This document shows, piece by piece, positions 22,824 to 37,457 of a stretch of DNA of 64,000 nt (positions are counted from its first letter, which is position 1; each line of letters begins with the position of its first letter). The translations under genes and the position numbers were made by a program. The notes beneath the pieces were generated by a model. The model saw only the letters and a program-made list of their open reading frames with translations, made no database searches and was not told where the DNA came from. The stretch comes from Sphingobacteriaceae bacterium (GTDB lineage Bacteria; Bacteroidota; Bacteroidia; Sphingobacteriales; Sphingobacteriaceae): contig CANHGR010000004.1 of NCBI GenBank assembly GCA_947460875.1, positions 62,001 to 126,000 of the forward strand, given 5' to 3'.

Positions 22824-24014
22824 CTAACCGTTGATGGCCTTCACGCCAGGGAGTTCCTTGCCTTCCATATACTCCAATAAAGCACCTCCACCGGTAGAAA
22901 CGTAGCTAACCTTATCCTCCATGCCAAACTTTGAGATCGCAGCGGCAGAATCTCCTCCACCAATTAATGAGAAGGCGCCTTTTTCTGTTGCAGAAGCTAA
23001 TGCATCAGCTACCGCTTTAGTTCCGTGCAAGAAATTTTCCATCTCAAAAACGCCCATAGGACCATTCCAAAGAATTGTTTTGGAATTAATTATTACATCG
23101 GCAAATATTTTACGTGTTTCCGGACCAATATCTAAGCCCATCCAATCGTCGGGAATATTTCCTGCTTTAACGGTTTTACGCTCCGCATCATTGTCGAAAT
23201 CGGTTGCTACAACGGTATCCACAGGCAAATAGATTTTAACGCCTTTTGCCTTTGCTTTTTCTAATAACTCAAGTGCTAATTCTTGCTTGTCTGCTTCTAA
23301 TAAGGAAATTCCGATAGTTCCGCCTAATGCTTTGGAAAACGTATAGGCCATTCCGCCAGCAATTATCAGATTATCAGCCTTGTTTAATAATTGCTCTATC
23401 AAAAGAATCTTATCAGAAACTTTTGAGCCACCCATTATAGCGGTAAATGGCTTTTCTGCGTTGTTTAACACTTTCTCTGCATTTTCTAATTCAGCAGCCA
23501 TTAGGAAGCCAAAATATTTAGCGCTAGGGAAGAATTTTGCAATTACTGCAGTAGAAGCGTGGGCGCGATGCGCCGTACCAAAGGCATCATTCACATAAAC
23601 GTCTCCAAGCTTTGACAGCTTTTCTGCAAAAACTTCATCACCCTTTTCCTCTTCCTTATAAAAGCGTAGGTTTTCAAGTAACAATACATCGCCAGGTTTT
23701 AATTCAGCTGCTTTCGTGATAGCTTGTTCGCCAATGCAATCATCTGCGAATTGAACACTTACGTTTAATACTTCTGAAAGATGCTTAACAATATGTTTTA
23801 AGGAATACTTCTCGGTCGGACCATCTTTCGGACGGCCAAGATGCGACATGAGGATCACAGCACCTCCATCCTTTAAAATTTTATTAATTGTCGATAAAGC
23901 CCCTTGGATGCGATTATCATCGGTGATATTATAGCTCTCGTCTAGAGGAACATTAAAATCAACACGTATAAGAGCCTTTTTGCCCAAAAAATTGAAATTT
24001 TCAACTGTTTTCAT
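22824..24014 (-). CDS. pgk: Phosphoglycerate kinase
   Basis: 396 residues, the standard monomeric PGK length. The N-terminal substrate site has RVDFNVPLD (residues 17-25) and MSHLGRPK. The hinge region and the C-terminal nucleotide site ([30 protein letters not shown]) are intact. It interconverts 1,3-bisphosphoglycerate and 3-phosphoglycerate with ATP. It follows the GNAT gene by 34 nt and gap before that, so a glycolytic gap-GNAT-pgk operon is likely, ended by the strong terminator downstream. Confidence 0.98.
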
Positions 24015-24048
24015 TATTATATTTAAAATTTGAGAATAAACGAGGGTG

Positions 24049-24483
24049 TTATTGAATTTTGAGGTACATTTTTCTATGCGGACCGATGGGATCTATAGTA
24101 AATTCATCTGATATAAACTCAAATCCTATTCCGGTATAAAAAGGGTATGCCACCCTGCGTGCGTTGCACCAAAGATAATTTACTTTTTGACCCCGAAGGT
24201 AAATAATTGCAAAATTTACCACCTGATTCCCCAATCCCTTTTTACGAAATTCAGGCAAAGTGGCCATCCCCCGCAGCTGATATCCGTTTCCTGGATAATC
24301 AGAAAGGGGCTGTTTATGAAAGGTAGCCACGCAAGTGAGTTGCTCATCTACATAATAGCCTAAGTGAAACGAGCCTTCCTCGTCGTCGGGTGGAAAACGA
24401 CAATCTTCTGCCGTAGGGCGATGCGGAAGAAGCACGCCATGGCGTAAAGCGAATGTATCTGGAGAGGCGATGAATTTGATCAT
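24049..24483 (-). CDS. GNAT-family N-acetyltransferase
   Basis: 144 residues with the GNAT core. The acetyl-CoA motif A is [26 protein letters not shown] (about residues 68-93, with the R-x-x-G-x-G loop as RKKGLG), and a late FYTGIGFE motif B follows. No substrate can be assigned. The start overlaps the gap stop by 4 nt and pgk follows, so it is carried in a glycolytic operon. This may be accidental or may reflect acetylation tied to central metabolism. Confidence 0.85.
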
Positions 24484-25514
24484 ATTTTTTGGTCCGACCT
24501 TTCGGTCTGCGGCGAAGAAAGTTTTAAAATAGAAATTTTTTCTACAAGATCTGCCAGGCGATTGGAATAACCAGACTCATTATCATACCAACCTACAACC
24601 TTTACCAATCCGCCAACTATAGAAGTTAATTGAGAATCGAAAATGCAGGAGTGTGAATTATCAATTACATCCACCGAAACGATCGGATCTTCGGTATACT
24701 CCAGAACTCCTTTTAAATAACCGAGTGAAGCATTTTTAAAGGCCGCGTTTATTTCATCCACTGTAGGCTGCCGTTTCAGGATGCAGGTAAAATCTGTAAG
24801 CGAACCGTTCAGCACAGGCACGCGTATCCCAGCACCCCCTAGTCTTCCCTCTAAATGCGGAAAAATAGCGGTTATTGCTTTTGCTGCGCCAGTTGTTGTG
24901 GGAATGATAGAAGCAGAAGCGGCCCTCGCCCTGCGTAGATCTTTGTGTGGAGCATCATGCAGGCTTTGATCGCCGGTCATGGAATGCACTGTCGTTATAT
25001 ATCCGTCAATAATGCCCCAGTGATCATCCAGCACTTTTACCATCGGAGCTACGTTATTGGTTGTACAAGAAGCGCTTGAAAGGATCGTTGCTGACAGGTC
25101 TATCTGATTATCATTTACACCAATCACCACAGTCGGCACGCTTTTATCTGCCGAAGGAGCCGAAATGATTACCTGTTTCGATCCGGCTTTTAAATGAAGT
25201 TCGGCTTTATCTTTAGATGTAAATTTCCCTGTCGATTCTATTACCAGATCAATTTCGAGAGCTTTCCAAGGGAGACGCGAAGGATCTTTTTCAGCCAATG
25301 CCTGAATGATTTGACCATTTATAACTAACGTTTGCGCCGTTGCACTTACTTTACCCCCAAAGATTCCATGAATGGAATCATACTTAAAAAGATGGGCAAG
25401 GGTTTGGGTATCAGAAAGATCATTGATTGCAATTACTTGAACATTCTTCTTGTTAAGAAGCCCGCGCAAAGCGATCCTACCAATACGTCCGAAACCATTA
25501 ATTGCTACTCTCAT
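24480..25514 (-). CDS. gap: Type I glyceraldehyde-3-phosphate dehydrogenase
   Basis: 344 residues. NAD-binding GFGRIGR at 7-13 and IAINDLSD at 29-36, with Asp32 favouring NAD over NADP. The catalytic Cys150 is in SSASCTTNN, the catalytic His follows in the TVHSMTGDQ segment, and the C-terminal WYDNESGYSNR motif is intact. The C-terminal tail ([15 protein letters not shown]) is a few residues longer than usual. It is the first gene of the gap-GNAT-pgk unit, with a TACCTTTG promoter element just upstream. Confidence 0.97.
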   Translation of the reverse strand: MRVAINGFGRIGRIALRGLLNKKNVQVIAINDLSDTQTLAHLFKYDSIHGIFGGKVSATAQTLVINGQIIQALAEKDPSRLPWKALEIDLVIESTGKFTSKDKAELHLKAGSKQVIISAPSADKSVPTVVIGVNDNQIDLSATILSSASCTTNNVAPMVKVLDDHWGIIDGYITTVHSMTGDQSLHDAPHKDLRRARAASASIIPTTTGAAKAITAIFPHLEGRLGGAGIRVPVLNGSLTDFTCILKRQPTVDEINAAFKNASLGYLKGVLEYTEDPIVSVDVIDNSHSCIFDSQLTSIVGGLVKVVGWYDNESGYSNRLADLVEKISILKLSSPQTERSDQKI

Positions 25515-25812: not shown

Positions 25813-26106
25813 TGTACGTCGTCAAACTAAAGTAAACTTTTCGCTAGCTGAAGTTTCATGTTGATTCAACCCTATTTATTTTTCTTTTATTTTCGAAAAT
25901 TTGTCTTGAAATTGATCTTTGATAAGCTTTTCTTCGCTCAAGAAACATTACCTTTTTGATTCGATCTCTTTCTTTTGAAATGGCCTCAACGCGTCCAAAA
26001 TAGACATCTGCAGGTGTTACATTATTCAAAGATTCGAGGTAGCGTTCGTTATTGTAACGATATACGAACTTTTCGAGGCCTTTTTCAAGCTCTTCTAGGG
26101 CACTGC
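25813..26106 (-). mobile_element. IS3-family element remnant (transposase C-terminus plus one end)
   Basis: The minus strand from ~26106 to 25866 encodes the C-terminal part of an IS3-type OrfB integrase without interruption: ALEELEKGLEKFVYRYNNER, then ESLNNVTPADVYFGR and a basic tail (ERRKAYQRS), ending at TGA. The YNNERYxESLNNxTPADVYFGR block is diagnostic. About 40 nt past the stop is a likely element end beginning TGTACGTCGTCAAACTAAAG at 25813 (plus strand). The rest of the transposase and the other end are missing. The P-type ATPase stop codon lies inside the remnant. Confidence 0.8.
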
Positions 26107-28662
26107 AATTTCTTCATTGAGTCTTTTGCGCCACTTCACAAACTCATACCAAATGGTACTAATAAAGCCAACCAAAACGCTGATCAATAACTGATTTAAA
26201 TCCAATGGCATGAAACCGAAGAAATCTGCTAACGGCCTGATAAATATCAACGATCCCGACAACACAATTGTTATCAAAATCATCCAAATGATCATATTAT
26301 TCTTATACTTTATCGTGGTAAATACTGAAAAGAAAAAGGAACGGTTTATTAGTGTTAGAAATATATTAGCAGAAATTAAAACAGTGAAAACCATAGTCCT
26401 GATCAAGGTTTCATCATAATCCTGCGCGAGCGCATATTGATAAATGCTAATAGTACCCGCTGTAATCATTAAGCCCTGCAGAATACTTGTAAAAAGCTCA
26501 GGCCCTGTAAAAAATGACGTTACAAACGGCCTCGGCTTTTGGATCATGGTATTTTTCTCTATGGGTTCATTCTCGTAAATGATCGAGCAGGTCGGTCCCA
26601 TAATCAGTTCCAAAAAAATTACATGTACAGGCGAAAATATATTTGGGTAAACCCAGCCAAAGGCAAGTGGAGTAAACACGGTAAGAATAATAGGAATATG
26701 GATAGATATAATGTATTGTATTGCTTTTTTTAAGTTGCTGTAGATTTTCCGTCCCATCGCCACAGCATCAACCATTTTAGAAAGATCATCCTTGACTAAC
26801 ACAAGAGCCGCAGCCTGTTTTGCAATCTCCGTTCCTTTCTTGCCCATCGCAATTCCAATGTGGGCTGCCTTCAAAGCCGGTCCATCATTTACACCATCGC
26901 CCATCATAGCCACAATCTCGTTTTCCGCTTTTAAAGCTTCTATAACTCTAAGTTTGGCATCCGGAAACATCCTGGCAAATACATTGGTGCTACCCACAAT
27001 TTTTCGAAGCTCCTGCTCATCCATCTTCATCAATTCATCGCCGGAAAGGCAATTTTCATAGCCTCTAAAGCCGATTTGCCGCGCAATAGCATTTGTTGTG
27101 ACTGCGTTATCGCCCGTTATGATCTTTACAGAGATTCCGGCACTATAAAAGTCTTCAAGTACTTTTTCTATATGTTTCTTCGGGGGATCGTAAAAAGCGA
27201 TAAGCCCTTTAAATTTGAATTGAAAATCCTGTTGATTTTCGGGGAAACGATTGCCGGAGAAAATTGCTTCGCCAACGCCAAGCATACGATAACCGTCTGC
27301 AGCTATGATATCTATTGTTTGTTCGATCATCGCTTTTTCATCTGCAGACATGTCTGAAGTGGCCATAAGTGCTTCAGGGGCACCTTTCGCCGCCACGATG
27401 CGCTTTCCGGATGAATTTTCAAATATATGGGTCATCATTGGCGGCTTTCCCCCAAGGGGATACTCATGAATCATTTTATACGCTGGACGCTCATCATCTG
27501 AGGTTGAGTTGGAATAAGCCTTATGCAAGGCCACTTCCATCGGGTCAAATGGGATTGGTTCGCTAGCCCACATTGCCAGCCTTACAAGTTCCTGTTCTTC
27601 TGTGCTAAGTTGATCGTTGGCCGTTGTGATCTTTTTGGAGCCTACCACAACTAGCTGTGCAAGGGTCATTTTGTTTTCAGTAATCGTTCCGGTTTTGTCG
27701 ATACAAATAACAGATGCGCTGCCTAAAGTTTCCACAGTTTTCATCTGCTTCACGACGACTCCCATTTTCATTAAACGCCATGCACCTAGCGCCATAAAGG
27801 TGGTAAAGGCTACAGGTATCTCCTCGGGCAGGATACTCATCGCTAGCGTAAGTGCCTTTAAAAGGCTATCGAGCAAATCATTTGATTTTAAGTAATTTAT
27901 AAGCCAAACGATCAAGAAAACAAACGCACCGGCAATCACCATCTTCTTTACGAAATCTCCTATTTGCGTCTCCAAAGGAGTATCTTCCTCTTGAATATCA
28001 TCTAAGCTTTTTCCTATCGCCCCGAGGCGCGTGCCATTACCGATGGCTGTGACCGTGGCAATTGCTAGACCGCCGGTCACGGTGGTGCCCCTCAAGATAA
28101 ACTTGTCTTCCTTCTTTTTGTCTTTATATACAGGCAAAGATTCGCCTGTGACAATTGATTCATTAACAGAGAAATCATTTGAATGGACAATGACTCCATC
28201 TGCGGCAATCAGTGTACCCTCTTCTACCATCAGGCTATCCCCTACCACCAGATCATCACTTTTAATTTCTACAACTACACCGTCTCGAATTACCTTACAC
28301 CATGGCTGGGTCATCTCCTTTAGCTTTTTCAGCGCGTTATGACTTCTGGTATCTTGATAAAGGGAAATAGCCGCAACTAGAACGATCGCCGACGCGAGGA
28401 AGATGGCGTCGCCGGTACTGCCACTTACAAAATAAATAACTGATGCAATGAGTAGCAGAATTACCATCGGCTCCTTTGCTAGACTTTTCAACGCTTGAAG
28501 AATTCGGCTTTTCTTACGATATTGGAGGGTATTAGATCCATGCTCGGCCCTGGCCGCTAGAACTTGCGATGCTGTAAGTCCTTCTATTTCAAAGTTATTT
28601 TCGACCATAGCTTTAGAATAAGAATTAGCCGCTTTTTGTTCGGCTGCTCTTATATCTTTCAT
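26095..28662 (-). CDS. Cation-transporting P-type ATPase (P2-like, unusual ion site)
   Basis: 855 residues with all P-type landmarks: actuator TGES (about residue 170), phosphorylation site CIDKTGTITENKM (about 323-335), and MMGDGVNDGPALK in the P domain. Ten membrane helices are expected. Helix 4 reads LPEEIPV, keeping the Glu equivalent of the SERCA calcium ligand. Helix 6, however, reads LELIMGPTCSIIYENEP where calcium pumps have NLxTDxLP, so the Asn and Asp ligands are absent and the transported ion is uncertain. Its start abuts the beta-CASP gene stop, so the two are co-translated. The stop codon is shared with an IS3 remnant. Confidence 0.9.
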   Translation of the reverse strand: MKDIRAAEQKAANSYSKAMVENNFEIEGLTASQVLAARAEHGSNTLQYRKKSRILQALKSLAKEPMVILLLIASVIYFVSGSTGDAIFLASAIVLVAAISLYQDTRSHNALKKLKEMTQPWCKVIRDGVVVEIKSDDLVVGDSLMVEEGTLIAADGVIVHSNDFSVNESIVTGESLPVYKDKKKEDKFILRGTTVTGGLAIATVTAIGNGTRLGAIGKSLDDIQEEDTPLETQIGDFVKKMVIAGAFVFLIVWLINYLKSNDLLDSLLKALTLAMSILPEEIPVAFTTFMALGAWRLMKMGVVVKQMKTVETLGSASVICIDKTGTITENKMTLAQLVVVGSKKITTANDQLSTEEQELVRLAMWASEPIPFDPMEVALHKAYSNSTSDDERPAYKMIHEYPLGGKPPMMTHIFENSSGKRIVAAKGAPEALMATSDMSADEKAMIEQTIDIIAADGYRMLGVGEAIFSGNRFPENQQDFQFKFKGLIAFYDPPKKHIEKVLEDFYSAGISVKIITGDNAVTTNAIARQIGFRGYENCLSGDELMKMDEQELRKIVGSTNVFARMFPDAKLRVIEALKAENEIVAMMGDGVNDGPALKAAHIGIAMGKKGTEIAKQAAALVLVKDDLSKMVDAVAMGRKIYSNLKKAIQYIISIHIPIILTVFTPLAFGWVYPNIFSPVHVIFLELIMGPTCSIIYENEPIEKNTMIQKPRPFVTSFFTGPELFTSILQGLMITAGTISIYQYALAQDYDETLIRTMVFTVLISANIFLTLINRSFFFSVFTTIKYKNNMIIWMILITIVLSGSLIFIRPLADFFGFMPLDLNQLLISVLVGFISTIWYEFVKWRKRLNEEIAVP

Positions 28663-30078
28663 TTAATTCGGACTTTCATCCTCCAGAATGTCAGGTGCAG
28701 CATCACAGTTAAATAAAATAACATCCTGATCCTCCTTCATAACCTTAACAGAAGAGTAAGATTCACTTAAAAGTTTTACTCTAAATGCTTCCTGTGCACC
28801 GCGCTCACCGTGTACCAACATTATTTGAGTGGGTGCCTTTTTAAATTTGCTCAGCCAGTTCAATAACTCTGTCTGATCAGCATGAGCTGAGAGGTTTAAT
28901 AGCTCAGTTACCCTTGCGTTTACCGGATAATATTTTCCGTGAATTTTTAATTCATAAGCCTTATTCAATAAGGCCCTGCCCCTCGTTCCCTCAGCTTGAT
29001 AACCGATCATCAATATGAGATTTCGGCGATCCTTTAAATAATGCTTTAAGTAGTCGAGCACCCGTCCACCGGATAGCATCCCGCTAGCAGCAATTACTAT
29101 TTTACTTCCTTTTTGTTGGATCAAGCGCTCGGTATTTTTAAAGTCGCGGTTGATGATTACTTGATCACTCATCTCAACCAGCTCCTTCTTTTCGATTTTG
29201 GAAAATTCAGGATATTTCAGAAGAATTGAGGTTGCATTTGCTGCCATCGGACTGTCTAAAATTATAGGAATATCTTTCGGGATCTTATCTTGATCCTTGA
29301 GAAGATCAAGAATATAAATCAGTTCTTGAGCACGTCCAACGGCAAAGCTTGGAATTAATACATTTCCTCCTCTATCGATGGTATCATTAACCGCATCAGC
29401 TAACAACTCATAGGCATCCGTCGGTTCGTGTAGACGATCGCCGTAGGTAGATTCCATGATCACAAAATCAGCGGCAGTAAAGTAATCCGGTTCGGCTAGA
29501 ATGGCACTTCGACATCTTCCGATATCGCCCGAAAAAATGATAATCTTACCGTAGCAAGTCAACTCAATCGAACAAGCACCCAGAATGTGTCCGCTCGTTT
29601 TAAATCTAAACTGAATGTCACTACTTAAGCGAATAAAAGTATCGCAAGGTTTTGTAATAAAGTATTTAAAGGACTCCTCAGCGTCTTCCGAGGAATATAA
29701 TGGTAAAGCGGGATGATGCTTAGAATAATGATAATCATTGGCCTTTCTTGCATCCTCTTCTTGAATTTTAGCACTATCTAACAGAATCAACCGGGTGAGT
29801 TCCTCCGTGGGCTCGGTCATGTAAATCTTACCCCTGAAACCCTGCTTCACCAACAGCGGAATATATCCGCAATGGTCAAGATGAGCATGAGTAAGAATAA
29901 GAACATCAATCGTTGCAGGATTAACGGGCAGTTTCTCCCAATTTTTTTCACGAAGTGATTTTATTCCCTGAAATAGTCCGCAGTCAATCAGAATATTGAG
30001 AGTTGGAGTTTTCAATAAATGTTTAGAACCGGTTACTGTTTCTGCCGCACCGAGCGATTGTAAGATTACTAAATCCAT
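28663..30078 (-). CDS. Metallo-beta-lactamase fold protein with beta-CASP and RMMBL domains (RNase/exonuclease-like)
   Basis: 471 residues. The zinc motif HAHLDH is at 64-69, with the companion FSGDIGR. The beta-CASP insertion has the MESTYGDR and LIPSFAVGRAQEL motifs. The RMMBL end contains YQAEGTRGRALL and LSAHADQTELLNW, then LVHGE. This is the architecture of CPSF73-like and YsmH/TTHA0252-type RNA-processing enzymes, so an RNA endo- or exonuclease role is likely. The final ~35 residues are extra. It forms a two-gene operon with the P-type ATPase and diverges from the FixL-like kinase gene. Confidence 0.92.
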   Translation of the reverse strand: MDLVILQSLGAAETVTGSKHLLKTPTLNILIDCGLFQGIKSLREKNWEKLPVNPATIDVLILTHAHLDHCGYIPLLVKQGFRGKIYMTEPTEELTRLILLDSAKIQEEDARKANDYHYSKHHPALPLYSSEDAEESFKYFITKPCDTFIRLSSDIQFRFKTSGHILGACSIELTCYGKIIIFSGDIGRCRSAILAEPDYFTAADFVIMESTYGDRLHEPTDAYELLADAVNDTIDRGGNVLIPSFAVGRAQELIYILDLLKDQDKIPKDIPIILDSPMAANATSILLKYPEFSKIEKKELVEMSDQVIINRDFKNTERLIQQKGSKIVIAASGMLSGGRVLDYLKHYLKDRRNLILMIGYQAEGTRGRALLNKAYELKIHGKYYPVNARVTELLNLSAHADQTELLNWLSKFKKAPTQIMLVHGERGAQEAFRVKLLSESYSSVKVMKEDQDVILFNCDAAPDILEDESPN

Positions 30079-30134
30079 TACAAAATATATTAAACTAATC
30101 TATTCAAACTTCCTTTGATTTTCACAATAAAACA

Positions 30135-30148
30135 GTGATCATAATCAT
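30135..30148. promoter_or_regulatory. FNR/CRP-like palindrome in the divergent promoter region
   Basis: GTGATCATAATCAT has a perfect TGAT-N4-ATCA core, 8/10 matches to the FNR site TTGAT-N4-ATCAA. It lies between the beta-CASP/ATPase operon and the kinase-regulator operon. The regulator's recognition helix carries FNR-like E-T-V-S-R residues, so autoregulation and control of the divergent operon are plausible. The core is short and could occur by chance. Confidence 0.4.
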
Positions 30149-30266
30149 TAAAATAGATGATTCTCGCCTTAATTTCTGAGCTGAATTATTCTGACAGACT
30201 AGTGAAGCATTTTTTAACGCAAGGGACAATTCCCATTTAAGTCTTATCTTTAACCTTTCAACTCCT

Positions 30267-31487
30267 TTGATGGAATCTGCACCTCTTTTAAAAGCAATTA
30301 TCGACAATGCCATTGATGGCATCCTGACTATTGATACGAAAGGAATTGTAGAATCTATCAATCCAGCTGCCTGTAAATTATTTGGTTTCGATGCTTCTGA
30401 AGTAATTGGCAATAACATTTCAATGCTCATGCCACCGCCAGACAAAGGGCATCATGACGGCTATTTGAAACGGTATCAGGAAACAAAAGAGCCACGCATA
30501 ATCGGTGCCGGACGCGAAGTAAAAGGTCTCCGAAAAGATGGAAGTATCTTTCCCTTTAGGTTGGCCGTAAGTGAAGTTGTGTATATTGGAAAAACCATTT
30601 ATACCGGCTTTATTCATGATCTGAGTAAAGAAAAAGAAGCGGAAGAACGTATCATTGAATACGCACAAGAATTGGAGCAGCTTGTTGAGAACCGAACGGC
30701 AGAGCTTCGTGGCACTGTGCAAGCGCTTGAAAAAGCAAAAGCAGAAGTGAGCCTTTCATTTGAAAAAGAAAAAGAACTAAACCAGCTAAAAAGTCGCTTT
30801 GTTTCCATGGCTTCTCATGAATTTCGAACGCCTCTGAGTTCTATTCAACTATCCGGGTCGCTAATCGAAAAATACGCTCAGCAATTTAATAATCCAAACA
30901 TTTCAAAGCATGTTGGCAAGATCAAAAGCTCGGTACGAAATCTAACAACCATCCTCAACGATTTTCTTTCGCTTGAGCGCCTTGAAGCCGGCAAAGTAGA
31001 GCCTGCGCCTGTCAGCTTTGACCTCGTAAAGCTTTCGGAAGAGATCACCGAAGAGCTGCAGTTGATTGCCAAACAAAATCAAACTATCATCTATCAACAT
31101 ACTGGACTACGCAGTATAATTATTCTGGATCAGAACCTACTTAAAAACTGCATAATCAACCTTATCGCTAACGCCATCAAATACTCCGGAGAAAATACAT
31201 TTATTGAGTTCAACACTGAGTTAACGGATGCGACCTGCATCGTAACAATTAAAGACAACGGAATAGGGATACCTGATTCAGATCATAAGCATTTGTTCGA
31301 GCCATTCTTTAGAGCCAACAATACCGGCAACATACCGGGAACTGGCTTAGGCCTAAATATTGTTTCGAGATACGCAAGGCTCATGAACGGCAGCGTGTCG
31401 TTTGAAAGTATGCTAAACAAAGGCACTGTATTTACCATTACAATACCGATCCACAATGAAGAAAACTCTATTGATTATCGAGGATAA
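30267..31487 (+). CDS. FixL-like haem-PAS sensor histidine kinase
   Basis: 406 residues, no membrane segment, so cytoplasmic. The N-terminal PAS domain (about 1-125) matches the FixL haem PAS closely. His62 in HHDGYLKRY is the proximal haem ligand equivalent, and Arg82 in GAGREVKG lies exactly 20 residues later, the same spacing as His200 and Arg220 of Bradyrhizobium FixL. KDGSIFPFRLAV and TGFIHDL also match. A coiled coil (about 125-175) follows, then HisKA with the phospho-His in SHEFRTPLS and HATPase_c (DNGIGIP, GTGLGLNI). Predicted role: oxygen or redox sensing and phosphorylation of the overlapping regulator. Haem binding is inferred, not shown. Confidence 0.88.
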   Translation: MMESAPLLKAIIDNAIDGILTIDTKGIVESINPAACKLFGFDASEVIGNNISMLMPPPDKGHHDGYLKRYQETKEPRIIGAGREVKGLRKDGSIFPFRLAVSEVVYIGKTIYTGFIHDLSKEKEAEERIIEYAQELEQLVENRTAELRGTVQALEKAKAEVSLSFEKEKELNQLKSRFVSMASHEFRTPLSSIQLSGSLIEKYAQQFNNPNISKHVGKIKSSVRNLTTILNDFLSLERLEAGKVEPAPVSFDLVKLSEEITEELQLIAKQNQTIIYQHTGLRSIIILDQNLLKNCIINLIANAIKYSGENTFIEFNTELTDATCIVTIKDNGIGIPDSDHKHLFEPFFRANNTGNIPGTGLGLNIVSRYARLMNGSVSFESMLNKGTVFTITIPIHNEENSIDYRG

Positions 31488-32517
31488 CGAAGATATCCGA
31501 GAGAGCACCGCTGAAATCCTGGAATTGGCAAATTTTACCGTTTTGCAGGCAGAAAACGGCAAAAAAGGTATTGAAATAGCTCAAAAAAACCTCCCCGACC
31601 TTATTCTTTGCGATATTATGATGCCTGAACTTGATGGTTATGGAGTATTGTATCTTTTAAGCAAAGTACCCGAAACCGCCACAATTCCATTTATTTTTCT
31701 TACTGCTAAGGCAGAACGGATAGATATGCGAAAAGGCATGGAGATGGGAGCAGATGACTACCTAACTAAACCCTTTGACGATATTGAATTACTGAATGCG
31801 ATCGATGGACGGTTTAACAAAAAGGAAAGGGAACATACGTTTTATAGCAAGGCGATTGAGAGCTTGAGTTCTATAGCAAATCATGGCAACGGCGCTTCTG
31901 AGTTGAAAAAGCTTGTCGGCGGACGAAAGCTTAGATTTGTAAAAAAGAAACAAGCAATCTACTTTGAAGGCGACTCTGTTCAAGGTATTTATTTATTGTT
32001 AACAGGCCGTGTCAAGGCTTTTAAATTAAGTGAAGACGGCAGAGAACTTATAACCGGGATTTATGGACAAGAAGAATATTTCGGCGTTCAGGCTTTATTT
32101 TCAGAAGAAGCATACAACGAAACAGTAGAAGCGTTAGAGGACTGTTCAGTATGTCTTTTGCCGAAAGATACGGTTATGGATCTTTTAAATAAATATCCGG
32201 ACATTGGACAGAAACTGATTAAAATTTTATCGAATAACCTACGAGAAAAAGAAGATCAACTTTTGCAACTGGCGTACAATTCTGTTAGAAAGAGAATGGC
32301 TGAAGTTTTGCTACGTTTAATCAAACAGCAAGATCAGCCTGCAGGTGAAGAAATATTCCTGCGTCTTCTTCGTGAAGACCTCGCCGCCATGGCAGGAATG
32401 GCAACTGAAACTGTCAGTCGCACGCTGAGCGATTTCCGCGAAGAAGGAATCATTGGCAAGCAAGGCAGTGAAATCCACATACTTGATATTTCGCGCCTGA
32501 AGCGGATGAAAAACTGA
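31456..32517 (+). CDS. Response regulator fused to a CRP/FNR-type transcription factor
   Basis: 353 residues. The receiver domain (1-120) has IIEDNED, the phospho-acceptor Asp in LILCDIMMPELDG and the conserved T/K (FLTAKAE, LTKPFDD). A cyclic-nucleotide-binding-type beta barrel (about 150-265) follows, then a winged helix (about 275-345) with REDLAAMAGMATETVSRTL. The E-T-V-S-R recognition residues match FNR and CRP relatives that read TTGAT/TGTGA half-sites. The FNR N-terminal Cys cluster is absent, so it probably receives its signal by phosphorylation. The start lies 32 nt inside the kinase gene, implying translational coupling. It combines FixJ-like input and FixK-like output in one chain. 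Confidence 0.93.
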   Translation: MKKTLLIIEDNEDIRESTAEILELANFTVLQAENGKKGIEIAQKNLPDLILCDIMMPELDGYGVLYLLSKVPETATIPFIFLTAKAERIDMRKGMEMGADDYLTKPFDDIELLNAIDGRFNKKEREHTFYSKAIESLSSIANHGNGASELKKLVGGRKLRFVKKKQAIYFEGDSVQGIYLLLTGRVKAFKLSEDGRELITGIYGQEEYFGVQALFSEEAYNETVEALEDCSVCLLPKDTVMDLLNKYPDIGQKLIKILSNNLREKEDQLLQLAYNSVRKRMAEVLLRLIKQQDQPAGEEIFLRLLREDLAAMAGMATETVSRTLSDFREEGIIGKQGSEIHILDISRLKRMKN

Positions 32518-32535
32518 CGACAATCATATTTCTAT

Positions 32536-32549
32536 TTGATTAGCCTCAT
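32536..32549 (+). promoter_or_regulatory. Weak FNR-like site upstream of ldhA
   Basis: TTGAT-TAGC-CTCAT has a perfect left half-site and a 3/5 right half. A GAACTTTG at ~32572-32579, one mismatch from TAnnTTTG, would start transcription near 32586. The box centre would then lie ~43 nt upstream of the start, close to the usual activator position. Confidence 0.25.
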
Positions 32550-32599
32550 GGTAACAGCAAGCTTCTTGCCTGAACTTTGCACGCATATAAAACTAAAAA

Positions 32600-33637
32600 A
32601 TGAAAGTTGTTGCGTACAGTGTCAGGCATTTTGAGAAAGAGCTTATCGCTAAAGCCAATCAAAAAAAGCACGATATTACTCTTATCTCAAATACGCTTGA
32701 TGTCGAAACGGCAATCTATGCAGAAGGAAAAGACGCAGCAATTGTCTTTACAAACGATGATGTATCAGCGCCGGTCATTAACAAGCTGGCAGATCTTGGA
32801 ATCAAATATATCGCCACTCGATCTGTCGGAACCGATCATATTGATCGTGAAGCTGCCGCTAAAAGAGGGATCAAAATAGCCAATGTCCCATCCTACTCGG
32901 CCGAGGCTATTGCTGAGTACGCGGCAATGCTTGCCCTAAGCCTAGGAAGGAAAATAATACCAACAGTTGATCAGGTTCGCAACTTTGATTTTCGAATAGA
33001 TGAGCATATTGGGTTTAATTTTTTCGGCAAAACAGTTGGTATTATCGGCTTGGGTCAGATTGGAAAAGCGGCAGCTAAAATTTTCATTGGCCTTGGATGC
33101 AAAGTTTTAGCCTATGACATTTCAGCGCAGAATATGAAAGATGTAAGAATGGTTGATATTGACATGCTATGTGCAAAATCTGATATTATTTCCCTTCATG
33201 TCCCGCTCAATAATTCAACTAAACACTTAGTTAATAAAAAAAGTCTTTCAAAAATGAAAGATGGTGTAATGTTGATCAATACCAGCCGCGGAGCGGTTAT
33301 AAATACAGAAGACGTGCTTACTGCCCTATCAAATAAAAAGATAGGGGCTTTGGGTCTTGACGTGTACGAACTCGAAAAAGGACTATTCTATTTTGATCAT
33401 AGGAGCGATACAACTAGGGATCCAGTAATTGAGCAACTTTTATCGTTCCAAAACGTAATTTTAAGTCCACATCAAGCATTCTTAACCAAAGAAGCCTTGC
33501 AAGAAATTGCCCTTAAAACTATTGCTAATCTTGACAAATGGCAGCAGAACAAATGCGTGGGTAAAGCTTGTGTATGCACAAAAGACTGCAGCTCAATCTC
33601 TGAGCTGAAAAAAAATCCGGAGAATAGAATGCTTTAA
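32600..33637 (+). CDS. ldhA: D-lactate dehydrogenase (LdhA-type, D-2-hydroxyacid dehydrogenase family)
   Basis: 345 residues. The NAD-binding loop is GIIGLGQIGKAAA (about 149-161). Catalytic residues of the family are the Arg in NTSRGAV, the Glu in LDVYELEKG, and the His in LSPHQAFLT. It matches E. coli LdhA throughout, including the FYFDHRSD region. It reduces pyruvate to D-lactate and so re-oxidises NADH without oxygen. Its position just after the haem-PAS two-component pair suggests oxygen-dependent control. Odd feature: a C-terminal tail with four cysteines (KCVGKACVCTKDC) absent from E. coli LdhA. The 3' end carries the terminator of the convergent mla operon. Confidence 0.93.
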   Translation: MKVVAYSVRHFEKELIAKANQKKHDITLISNTLDVETAIYAEGKDAAIVFTNDDVSAPVINKLADLGIKYIATRSVGTDHIDREAAAKRGIKIANVPSYSAEAIAEYAAMLALSLGRKIIPTVDQVRNFDFRIDEHIGFNFFGKTVGIIGLGQIGKAAAKIFIGLGCKVLAYDISAQNMKDVRMVDIDMLCAKSDIISLHVPLNNSTKHLVNKKSLSKMKDGVMLINTSRGAVINTEDVLTALSNKKIGALGLDVYELEKGLFYFDHRSDTTRDPVIEQLLSFQNVILSPHQAFLTKEALQEIALKTIANLDKWQQNKCVGKACVCTKDCSSISELKKNPENRML

Positions 33638-36205: not shown

Positions 36206-36679
36206 TTTACCGATATTCTGATTTTAATAGTAATTCATAACCAAATTCAAGGTGAATTCGCGAACCAAAAATTATAAAAGCATCGGCAGGGGAAGTCTTT
36301 TAAAGCGTTACAATAAACGACCCAAAATCTGCAGAGCTATCCGAATTCCTGCTATCCTAAAACAGGAAGATGTTGCCAATTTTATTCGCAAATATCCTGA
36401 AAATATCATAATTAATTTACTCTTTTTATTTGAGATTTAATAGATCATCGATAGCCGAAAGAAACGCAAAAGAAGCAAAAAGTAATTGACTCCATTGATA
36501 TTTTTAGTTCTAGCACGAGAGGAGGTTCTATTCATTGAATAAAACCTCTTCTCGTGCGGCCTTTCAATAGCATGACACAATTTACTTGACGCCATGCCCC
36601 TCGAATGAAAGATTAATCTGTTCATAAATAACTACTAACAATGCGGATTGCCATCAAAGGCCCCTGCGTATGAAGCACT
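36206..36679. other. Gene-free stretch upstream of mlaE containing a large palindrome
   Basis: Short reading frames here (36252-36440 plus, 36437-36625 minus) have no recognisable family or composition and are probably not genes. The only clear structure is the 45-bp palindrome at 36513-36557. The right part merges into the decayed universal-stress gene. Confidence 0.5.
36513..36557. repeat. 45-bp near-perfect palindrome (possible cruciform or hairpin)
   Basis: The left arm GCACGAGAGGAGGTT (36513-36527) pairs with AACCTCTTCTCGTGC (36543-36557) with a single G.T. After one mismatch TATTCA and TGAATA continue almost to the centre. No T-run follows on either strand, so it is not a standard intrinsic terminator. 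It lies 3' of the universal-stress pseudogene and 5' of the mla operon. Confidence 0.8.
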
Positions 36680-37457
36680 AGGTATTTTCGATGACTATGC
36701 TTCAAAATACGGTATAATAGAATGCTCTTTTGGCATCACGATTAGAGGATCAATTTTGATTTAATCTGCAATTTCGATGATTTCATCATTGCTTCCACCA
36801 TTAATAAAATCATAAAATGGCCTTAGACATCCATAATAGACTGCAAAAAGCGCATCTCTTTAGCCTTGTCTTTAGTCACATTTATTTCAGTGCCAACACC
36901 GCCATTTATAATGTGAAGCTAAGCACCAAACTCATTGACAATACTTTTTATCTCGCTTAACCGAATCGTTTCTACTACATTTTCCAGATCACAAGCCAGG
37001 CCGATTTTGTTCATTTTAAACTGCGCTTGTGGCGGAACAATTATGGTACGCCAAGGAAACTGACTAATTGCGCCCAAATTTTTACCGCCGAAAATAAGTC
37101 GCTCAAAAGCGTTGCCGATTTCTGCCCCCATTATGACTAAAGACAAATTTACCGAATTGCAGTATTCTTCAATCCCGGCTATAACGGTCCCCAGCTTTAC
37201 TTCAAAATTTATGGTAATTTTACCTCCTGTATTCTGCGCTATATCTTCTTGTACTTTCTTTAGTGTCAGTTCTGCATCTGCAATTACCTCGGCCGTTGTA
37301 TAGCCTGGCAACGGAAGCTCGCTATATGAAACGTGCAATGGCCAGACACAAATTAACGAAATGGCACATTGTCGGCAATCACAGTCATTTCTACCCCATA
37401 ACTAAGAGCGTTCAGTGATATCTCTGACAGGCCAGTCGGTACACCGATAGTTTTTAT
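36680..37457 (-). pseudogene. Decayed tandem universal stress protein (Usp) gene
   Basis: Three minus-strand frames together rebuild a two-domain Bacteroidota Usp. The N-terminus reads KTIGVPTGLSEISLNALSYG but begins at ATA (37455-37457), not ATG. A shift near 37365 moves to the 37338-36919 frame, which holds the first domain's nucleotide-site region (LVIMGAEIGNAFERLIFGGK, IIVPP) and the start of domain 2 (KIGLACDLENVVETIRL). A TAG follows at 36919-36921, and another shift continues with FYDFINGGSNDEIIEIAD and DPLIVMPKEHSIIPYFEA. The lost start, stops and shifts make a working product very unlikely. Usp genes often accompany redox regulators such as the one at 30 kb. Confidence 0.75.

Follow-up and report, generated by a model that had tools for sequence, protein, structure and literature searches.

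The locus described here raises the question of whether two overlapping genes of a Sphingobacteriaceae bacterium can provide the sensing, phospho-relay and FNR-type output that rhizobia divide among FixL, FixJ and FixK. The window (the whole stretch of DNA analysed, 64,000 nucleotides) carries a gene for a soluble sensor kinase, followed by a gene for a response regulator in which a receiver is fused to a CRP/FNR domain (REC-CRP). A sequence-only reading had interpreted this pair as a compressed Fix system. The results given below make it probable that the pair is a low-oxygen switch of two proteins, in which a FixL-type kinase would phosphorylate a fused FixJ- and FixK-like activator of micro-oxic genes. 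The open reading frames and their overlap agreed with those of the earlier reading, and the coordinates are collected in Table 1. The kinase start was ambiguous by one codon, as TTG 30267 directly precedes ATG 30270. Residues were numbered from the ATG; His62 and Arg82 become 63 and 83 when counted from the TTG.

Table 1. Coordinates of genes, residues and predicted regulatory sites in the window.
Feature	Position	Strand	Evidence
Cation (Ca2+-type) P-type ATPase gene, behind the MBL gene in the same direction	26095..28662	-	NCBIfam; L118 homologue adjoins an orphan REC-CRP with shared intergenic box
MBL-fold beta-CASP nuclease-like protein gene, predicted divergent target	28663..30078	-	NCBIfam; box in shared intergenic region
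-7-like element GAAGTTTG of the divergent MBL/P-ATPase promoter, 36 bp from box	30105..30112	-	
Predicted regulator box GTGATCATAATCAT, divergent intergenic region between kinase (+) and MBL/P-ATPase operon (-)	30135..30148	.	Family motif; -7-like elements at 35 bp (+) and 36 bp (-)
Sensor kinase gene, soluble, FixL-like	30270..31487	+	Pfam; FixL PAS match; invariant residues; AlphaFold2 pLDDT 81
His62 codon, aligned with FixL proximal haem ligand His200	30453..30455	+	Alignment; kept in nearly all class-wide PAS-bearing partner kinases
Arg82 codon, aligned with FixL distal Arg220	30513..30515	+	Alignment; invariant in FixL-type partners, mostly Met/Ile/Leu in the other PAS type
Kinase/regulator gene overlap, 32 nt	31456..31487	+	ORF coordinates
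Response regulator gene: receiver, cNMP-type barrel, Crp/Fnr helix-turn-helix	31456..32517	+	Pfam; alignment; AlphaFold2 pLDDT 81
Predicted box CTGACGACAATCAT, left half-site formed by the regulator TGA stop (32515-32517)	32514..32527	+	Kept in 37/38 family loci
Second predicted box TTGATTAGCCTCAT (TGA-N6-TCA), 22 bp downstream of the first	32536..32549	+	
-7-like element GAACTTTG (consensus TAnnTTTG), 58 bp from the first box	32572..32579	+	Spacing common to relatives
D-lactate/2-hydroxyacid dehydrogenase gene, predicted target	32600..33637	+	NCBIfam; downstream of regulator across family

The kinase is composed of a PAS domain (residues 7–117), a coiled linker, a HisKA domain with His183 and a HATPase_c domain, and all three domains scored above the curated Pfam cut-offs. 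A structural comparison with FixL had been recommended in the sequence-only reading. The haem-PAS domain of Bradyrhizobium FixL was the top PDB match of the kinase (E 3e-29), and the remaining PAS matches among the PDB matches listed were to DosP, also a haem-PAS protein. The FixL alignment contained no gaps; it placed His62 on His200 and Arg82 on Arg220, as had been claimed, and the motifs HDGYL, RIIG and KDGSIFP were found in the PAS domain. His62, Tyr65, Arg82 and the phospho-acceptor His183 were invariant across 29 aligned kinases, and the catalytic residues of the window kinase were complete. AlphaFold2 models of the two proteins showed the expected folds; with low pTM (0.40 and 0.53), they bear on the folds and not on how the domains are arranged. 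With a FixL-homologous PAS, the proximal His and the distal Arg, followed by HisKA and HATPase, the protein is a putative FixL-type haem-PAS kinase in the wider sense; against the NCBIfam FixL model NF041777 it scored 162.6 bits, below the equivalog cut-off of 850. The results suggested that the kinase is probably a FixL-like, haem-based O2 sensor.

The regulator matched Response_reg, cNMP_binding, HTH_Crp_2 and Crp of Pfam, all above the curated cut-offs, which confirmed the fusion of a receiver to a CRP/FNR barrel. Its recognition helix reads TETVSR and is FNR-like. It is a two-component response regulator, with D10, D53 (the phospho-acceptor), T83 and K105 of the receiver invariant in the alignment. 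The cNMP-type barrel and Crp helix-turn-helix place it in the CRP/FNR superfamily, consistent with Foldseek matches to CRP, FNR and FixK2; no PDB chain among the top Foldseek matches spanned a receiver and a CRP part together. It is not a FixJ, which has a receiver and a LuxR/GerE helix-turn-helix, since its output is cNMP_binding plus HTH_Crp_2. Nor does the NCBIfam FixK model NF050806 describe it (79.7 bits, cut-off 300), and it has an N-terminal receiver. No FNR-type N-terminal cysteine cluster for a [4Fe-4S] centre was found in the regulator alignment, and the Arg-Ser cAMP motif of CRP was absent from the barrel in the alignment as read by eye. Therefore, a CRP domain driven by phosphorylation is the simplest reading.

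The distribution of the pair was investigated with REC-CRP orthologues at E below 1e-40. At the level of the order, 182 of 201 genomes had an orthologue, all of one family; at the level of the class, the count was 198 of 395, spread over 102 of 197 genera. When 148 genomes were sampled across the phylum, 23 gave a match, and every one of them lay in the same class. A kinase lay directly upstream of REC-CRP at almost every locus, and this class-wide adjacency ruled out chance pairing. A search for the fusion beside haem-PAS kinases in other Bacteroidota had been advised at the outset; the pair proved to be common across Bacteroidia.

Partner kinases within the family carried a FixL-type PAS of about 100 bits or more against the FixL domain, with the His, Tyr and Arg in all. 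Outside the family, the partner PAS was mostly of a second type, in which the His was kept and the place of Arg220 was mostly taken by Met, Ile or Leu. This type (RSMGxGMDLxGxxKDGxEFPVEISLSP) was seen in the partner kinases of loci L042–L063 and L065–L113, where the FixL proximal His was almost always kept, and it is possibly a different haem-PAS. The solved structures nearest to one second-type PAS were one multi-sensor kinase, then FixL and DosP. A PAS-less receiver-kinase adjoined REC-CRP at seven loci, five of which (L064, L083, L105, L106 and L112) had a separate PAS kinase gene upstream; these loci may encode three-protein relays. The upstream kinase of L106 scored 215 bits against one FixL PAS domain, which suggests two FixL-type PAS domains.

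The tree of REC-CRP placed the family's FixL-type loci, together with one locus of another family, in a single strongly supported group; three further FixL-type loci lay elsewhere. REC-CRP is a Bacteroidia lineage of its own, paired with several kinds of sensor, the FixL-type PAS among them. The description of the pair as compressed therefore holds for function only; descent from the rhizobial three-gene cascade is not implied.

The gene order in the family is kinase, REC-CRP, D-lactate dehydrogenase (D-LDH) and HemN, with a cbb3 cluster close by (fixI-type ATPase, ccoN, ccoP, ccoG and ccoH, some named by sequence resemblance). Sphingobacterium corticibacter has the identical order of kinase, REC-CRP, D-LDH, HemN and fixI. 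In 40 of the 61 genomes compared, no more than 15 kb separated ccoN from REC-CRP, and many of the class-wide loci also had cbb3 genes or HemN within 6 kb. Both REC-CRP and ccoN were present in 81 of 101 genomes, REC-CRP alone in 11, ccoN alone in 1 and neither in 8 (Fisher p 3e-6, in a test that ignores phylogeny).

These data bear on the signal. The PAS haem could read NO, CO or redox, or the PAS could be without haem here, with the same promoters being controlled; we consider this unlikely. It would fit the replacement of FixL His214 by Arg76 and of Ile218 by Ala80 in the window kinase. In Bradyrhizobium FixL, the haem propionates are bonded by Arg206 and His214 (PMC10765370). The Arg206 equivalent is kept in the window kinase; at the places of His214 and Ile218, most relatives have His and Ile, and Arg and Lys are recurrent. 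It would also fit the Met, Ile or Leu at the Arg220 place of class-wide partners, by which the signal may vary among lineages. However, all kinases of the FixL-type set share the pocket landmarks His62, Tyr65 and Arg82, and the genes linked to the pair belong to life at low oxygen. O2 remains the preferred signal.

A recurrent palindrome, TGAY-N4-RTCA (RTGAYNNNNRTCAY), was found before the kinase, ccoN and D-LDH genes. Upstream of the kinase, it occurred at 24 of 42 family loci, with 0.15 expected from dinucleotide shuffles, and at 20 of 69 other loci of the class, with 0.23 expected. For ccoN, 23 of 30 loci had the palindrome upstream, compared with an expectation of 0.15, and its distance from the ATG was −86 to −98 in nearly all of them. 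A slightly relaxed form preceded D-LDH at 37 of 38 loci. The left half-site of the D-LDH box coincides with the TGA stop codon of the REC-CRP gene, and 34 of the 36 loci aligned use TGA as the stop. The relevant form of the box is RTGAY-N4-RTCAY. The classical FNR box TTGAT-N4-ATCAA was also considered as the operator and was rejected, as it was not enriched in the window (6 found, 5.7 expected).

The distance from the box start to the −7 element TAnnTTTG was 58 bp 32 times in the 33 D-LDH promoters scanned. In ccoN promoters, the box was followed by TAnnTTTG or TAnnTTTA at 58 or 59 bp 26 times; in kinase promoters, the distance was 36 or 58–60 bp. Boxes paired 22 bp (two helical turns) apart were found upstream of the kinase operon at L045, L048, L049, L055, L063, L077, L080, L107 and L108. 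In a flavobacterium, the sigma-A −7 box spans −12 to −5 (PMC9723704), so the 58-bp spacing would centre the boxes on −63.5 and −41.5. The −41.5 box would occupy the classical, class II activator position. Composite promoters of box and −7 element numbered 217 in 92 genomes with REC-CRP, compared with 14 for the reversed control. In nine genomes without REC-CRP only 4 were found, a significant difference from REC-CRP genomes (Mann-Whitney p 1.6e-4). The linkage and co-occurrence with cbb3 and HemN genes and the palindrome at a fixed class II spacing support the earlier proposal that sensing, relay and FNR-type output may be contained in two proteins.

The boxes could belong to another CRP/FNR regulator, with REC-CRP having a different regulon or acting as a mere modulator. 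These genomes encode further CRP/FNR proteins, which could bind the same boxes; they gave two matches in the window's genome and mostly 2–10 in relatives. One genome, G041, was the single one of 101 with ccoN but without REC-CRP. In it, a stand-alone CRP/FNR regulator (L249, 9469–10182) with a CX2CX8C N-terminus, a candidate FNR-like Fe-S site, adjoins fixI-ccoN beside boxes of like kind; the regulator appears to have been swapped and the boxes retained. But the boxes lie within the REC-CRP operon itself, where one overlaps the stop codon of REC-CRP at 37 of 38 loci, and composite promoters are about five times as frequent in genomes that have REC-CRP, so that control of the boxes by a different protein is improbable. 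REC-CRP remains the preferred owner of the boxes.

The window's genome is reduced (2.2 Mb), and nothing over the cut-off was found for ccoN in it. No close hemN was found either; the sole match, at 26% and covering part of the protein, was rejected as HemN and is probably HemW. The targets with the best support elsewhere are thus missing from this genome. The pair is therefore apparently kept for its remaining targets. These are probably the D-LDH gene and the divergent MBL/P-ATPase operon. An exact-box scan of this genome gave 18 sites, compared with 9 for the reversed control; many sites were intragenic and no clear regulon emerged. The composite 58-bp pattern had no match in this genome because its −7 elements deviate. 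The kinase-side −7-like sequence (TAATTTCT), 35 bp from the box at 30135, is weak. The absence of ccoN and of a close hemN match and the weak −7 element at the kinase promoter would suit a decaying leftover, briefly retained after its main targets were lost, but this is very improbable, because both genes are intact with all catalytic residues present and the D-LDH tandem boxes are retained at the right spacing.

Some further observations concern the surroundings. At 22824–25514 of the window, phosphoglycerate kinase-like and GAPDH genes adjoin the P-ATPase and MBL genes, so that glycolysis genes stand beside low-oxygen genes. Only short ORFs occur at 36437–37338; among them, a 139-aa ORF (36919–37338, minus strand) resembles the C-terminal part of a universal stress protein by eye. 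It had no NCBIfam match and is perhaps a decayed gene. Locus L118 has an orphan REC-CRP paralogue that lacks a kinase next to it. The genes around it, named by eye, encode Usp, alcohol dehydrogenase, P-ATPase, MBL, phosphofructokinase and aldolase, and form a cluster reminiscent of hypoxia clusters. The orphan REC-CRP faces the homologous P-ATPase across a box (ATGATCATAATCAT) near-identical to the intergenic box of the window.

From the domains, residues, synteny, co-occurrence, conserved boxes and spacing found by computation, we infer the following mechanism. His62 would attach the haem to the kinase PAS. Haem-bound O2, in contact with Arg82, would keep the kinase inactive in the manner of FixL. 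A fall in O2 would lead to autophosphorylation on His183 and transfer of the phosphate to Asp53 of the receiver. The phosphorylated receiver would cause the CRP/FNR domain to dimerise or rearrange and to bind the palindrome (R)TGAYNNNNRTCA(Y). Once bound at −41.5 (and −63.5), the regulator would activate sigma-A promoters. Its predicted targets in most of the family are its own operon, D-LDH and the cbb3 oxidase cluster, with hemN and the FixI-type copper ATPase as neighbours.

The pair was compared with known systems. It shares with FixL-FixJ-FixK of rhizobia and Caulobacter the haem-PAS kinase landmarks, a two-component relay, an FNR/FixK-type output and the linkage to cbb3 oxidase (fixNOQP) and fixGHI-type genes. 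That cascade uses FixJ, a receiver with a LuxR-type HTH, and a stand-alone CRP/FNR protein, FixK, whereas here one receiver-CRP fusion is found, without a separate transcriptional step and with Bacteroidota −7 promoters. DosS/DosT-DosR of Mycobacterium is likewise a system in which a haem sensor kinase acts on a hypoxia regulon, but DosS and DosT have GAF haem domains and DosR has a LuxR-type HTH. FNR/Anr of Proteobacteria shares the E-T-V-S-R recognition helix and an FNR-related palindrome, with cbb3 and hemN among the controlled or linked genes. FNR itself senses O2 via [4Fe-4S], whereas REC-CRP has a receiver and no such cysteine cluster. In hFixL-FxkR-FixKf of Rhizobiaceae, an alternative FixL-type sensor also leads to a CRP/FNR output that controls fixNOQP, but a receiver forms the C-terminal part of hFixL itself, and FxkR is a protein distinct from FixKf (PMC4999443, PMC7888657).

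In open-access full text, neither a REC-CRP regulator nor a FixL-type kinase was found described for Bacteroidota, which is weak evidence for novelty. To our knowledge, low-oxygen sensing and the switching on of the high-affinity cbb3 oxidase in aerobic Bacteroidia are largely unexplored. Strong cbb3 induction under oxygen limitation has been reported for Flavobacterium psychrophilum, in a text that names no Fnr or Crp regulator (PMC9723704).

There is about an even chance that the pair represents an oxygen control common to the class Bacteroidia, with one receiver-CRP activator, confined to this class among the genomes sampled, and interchangeable sensors, namely the FixL-type PAS kinase, the second His-conserving PAS type and the three-protein relay via a receiver-kinase. 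Tandem boxes with a spacing of 22 bp would control cbb3 oxidase and fermentation, and the regulator stop codon would serve as a half-site in one of them. Regulator, operator and promoter geometry are concrete enough here to be tested in culture, for instance in Sphingobacterium corticibacter. The pair would be a case in which a layer of a known cascade is replaced by a domain fusion and the sensor has been exchanged several times on a constant output.
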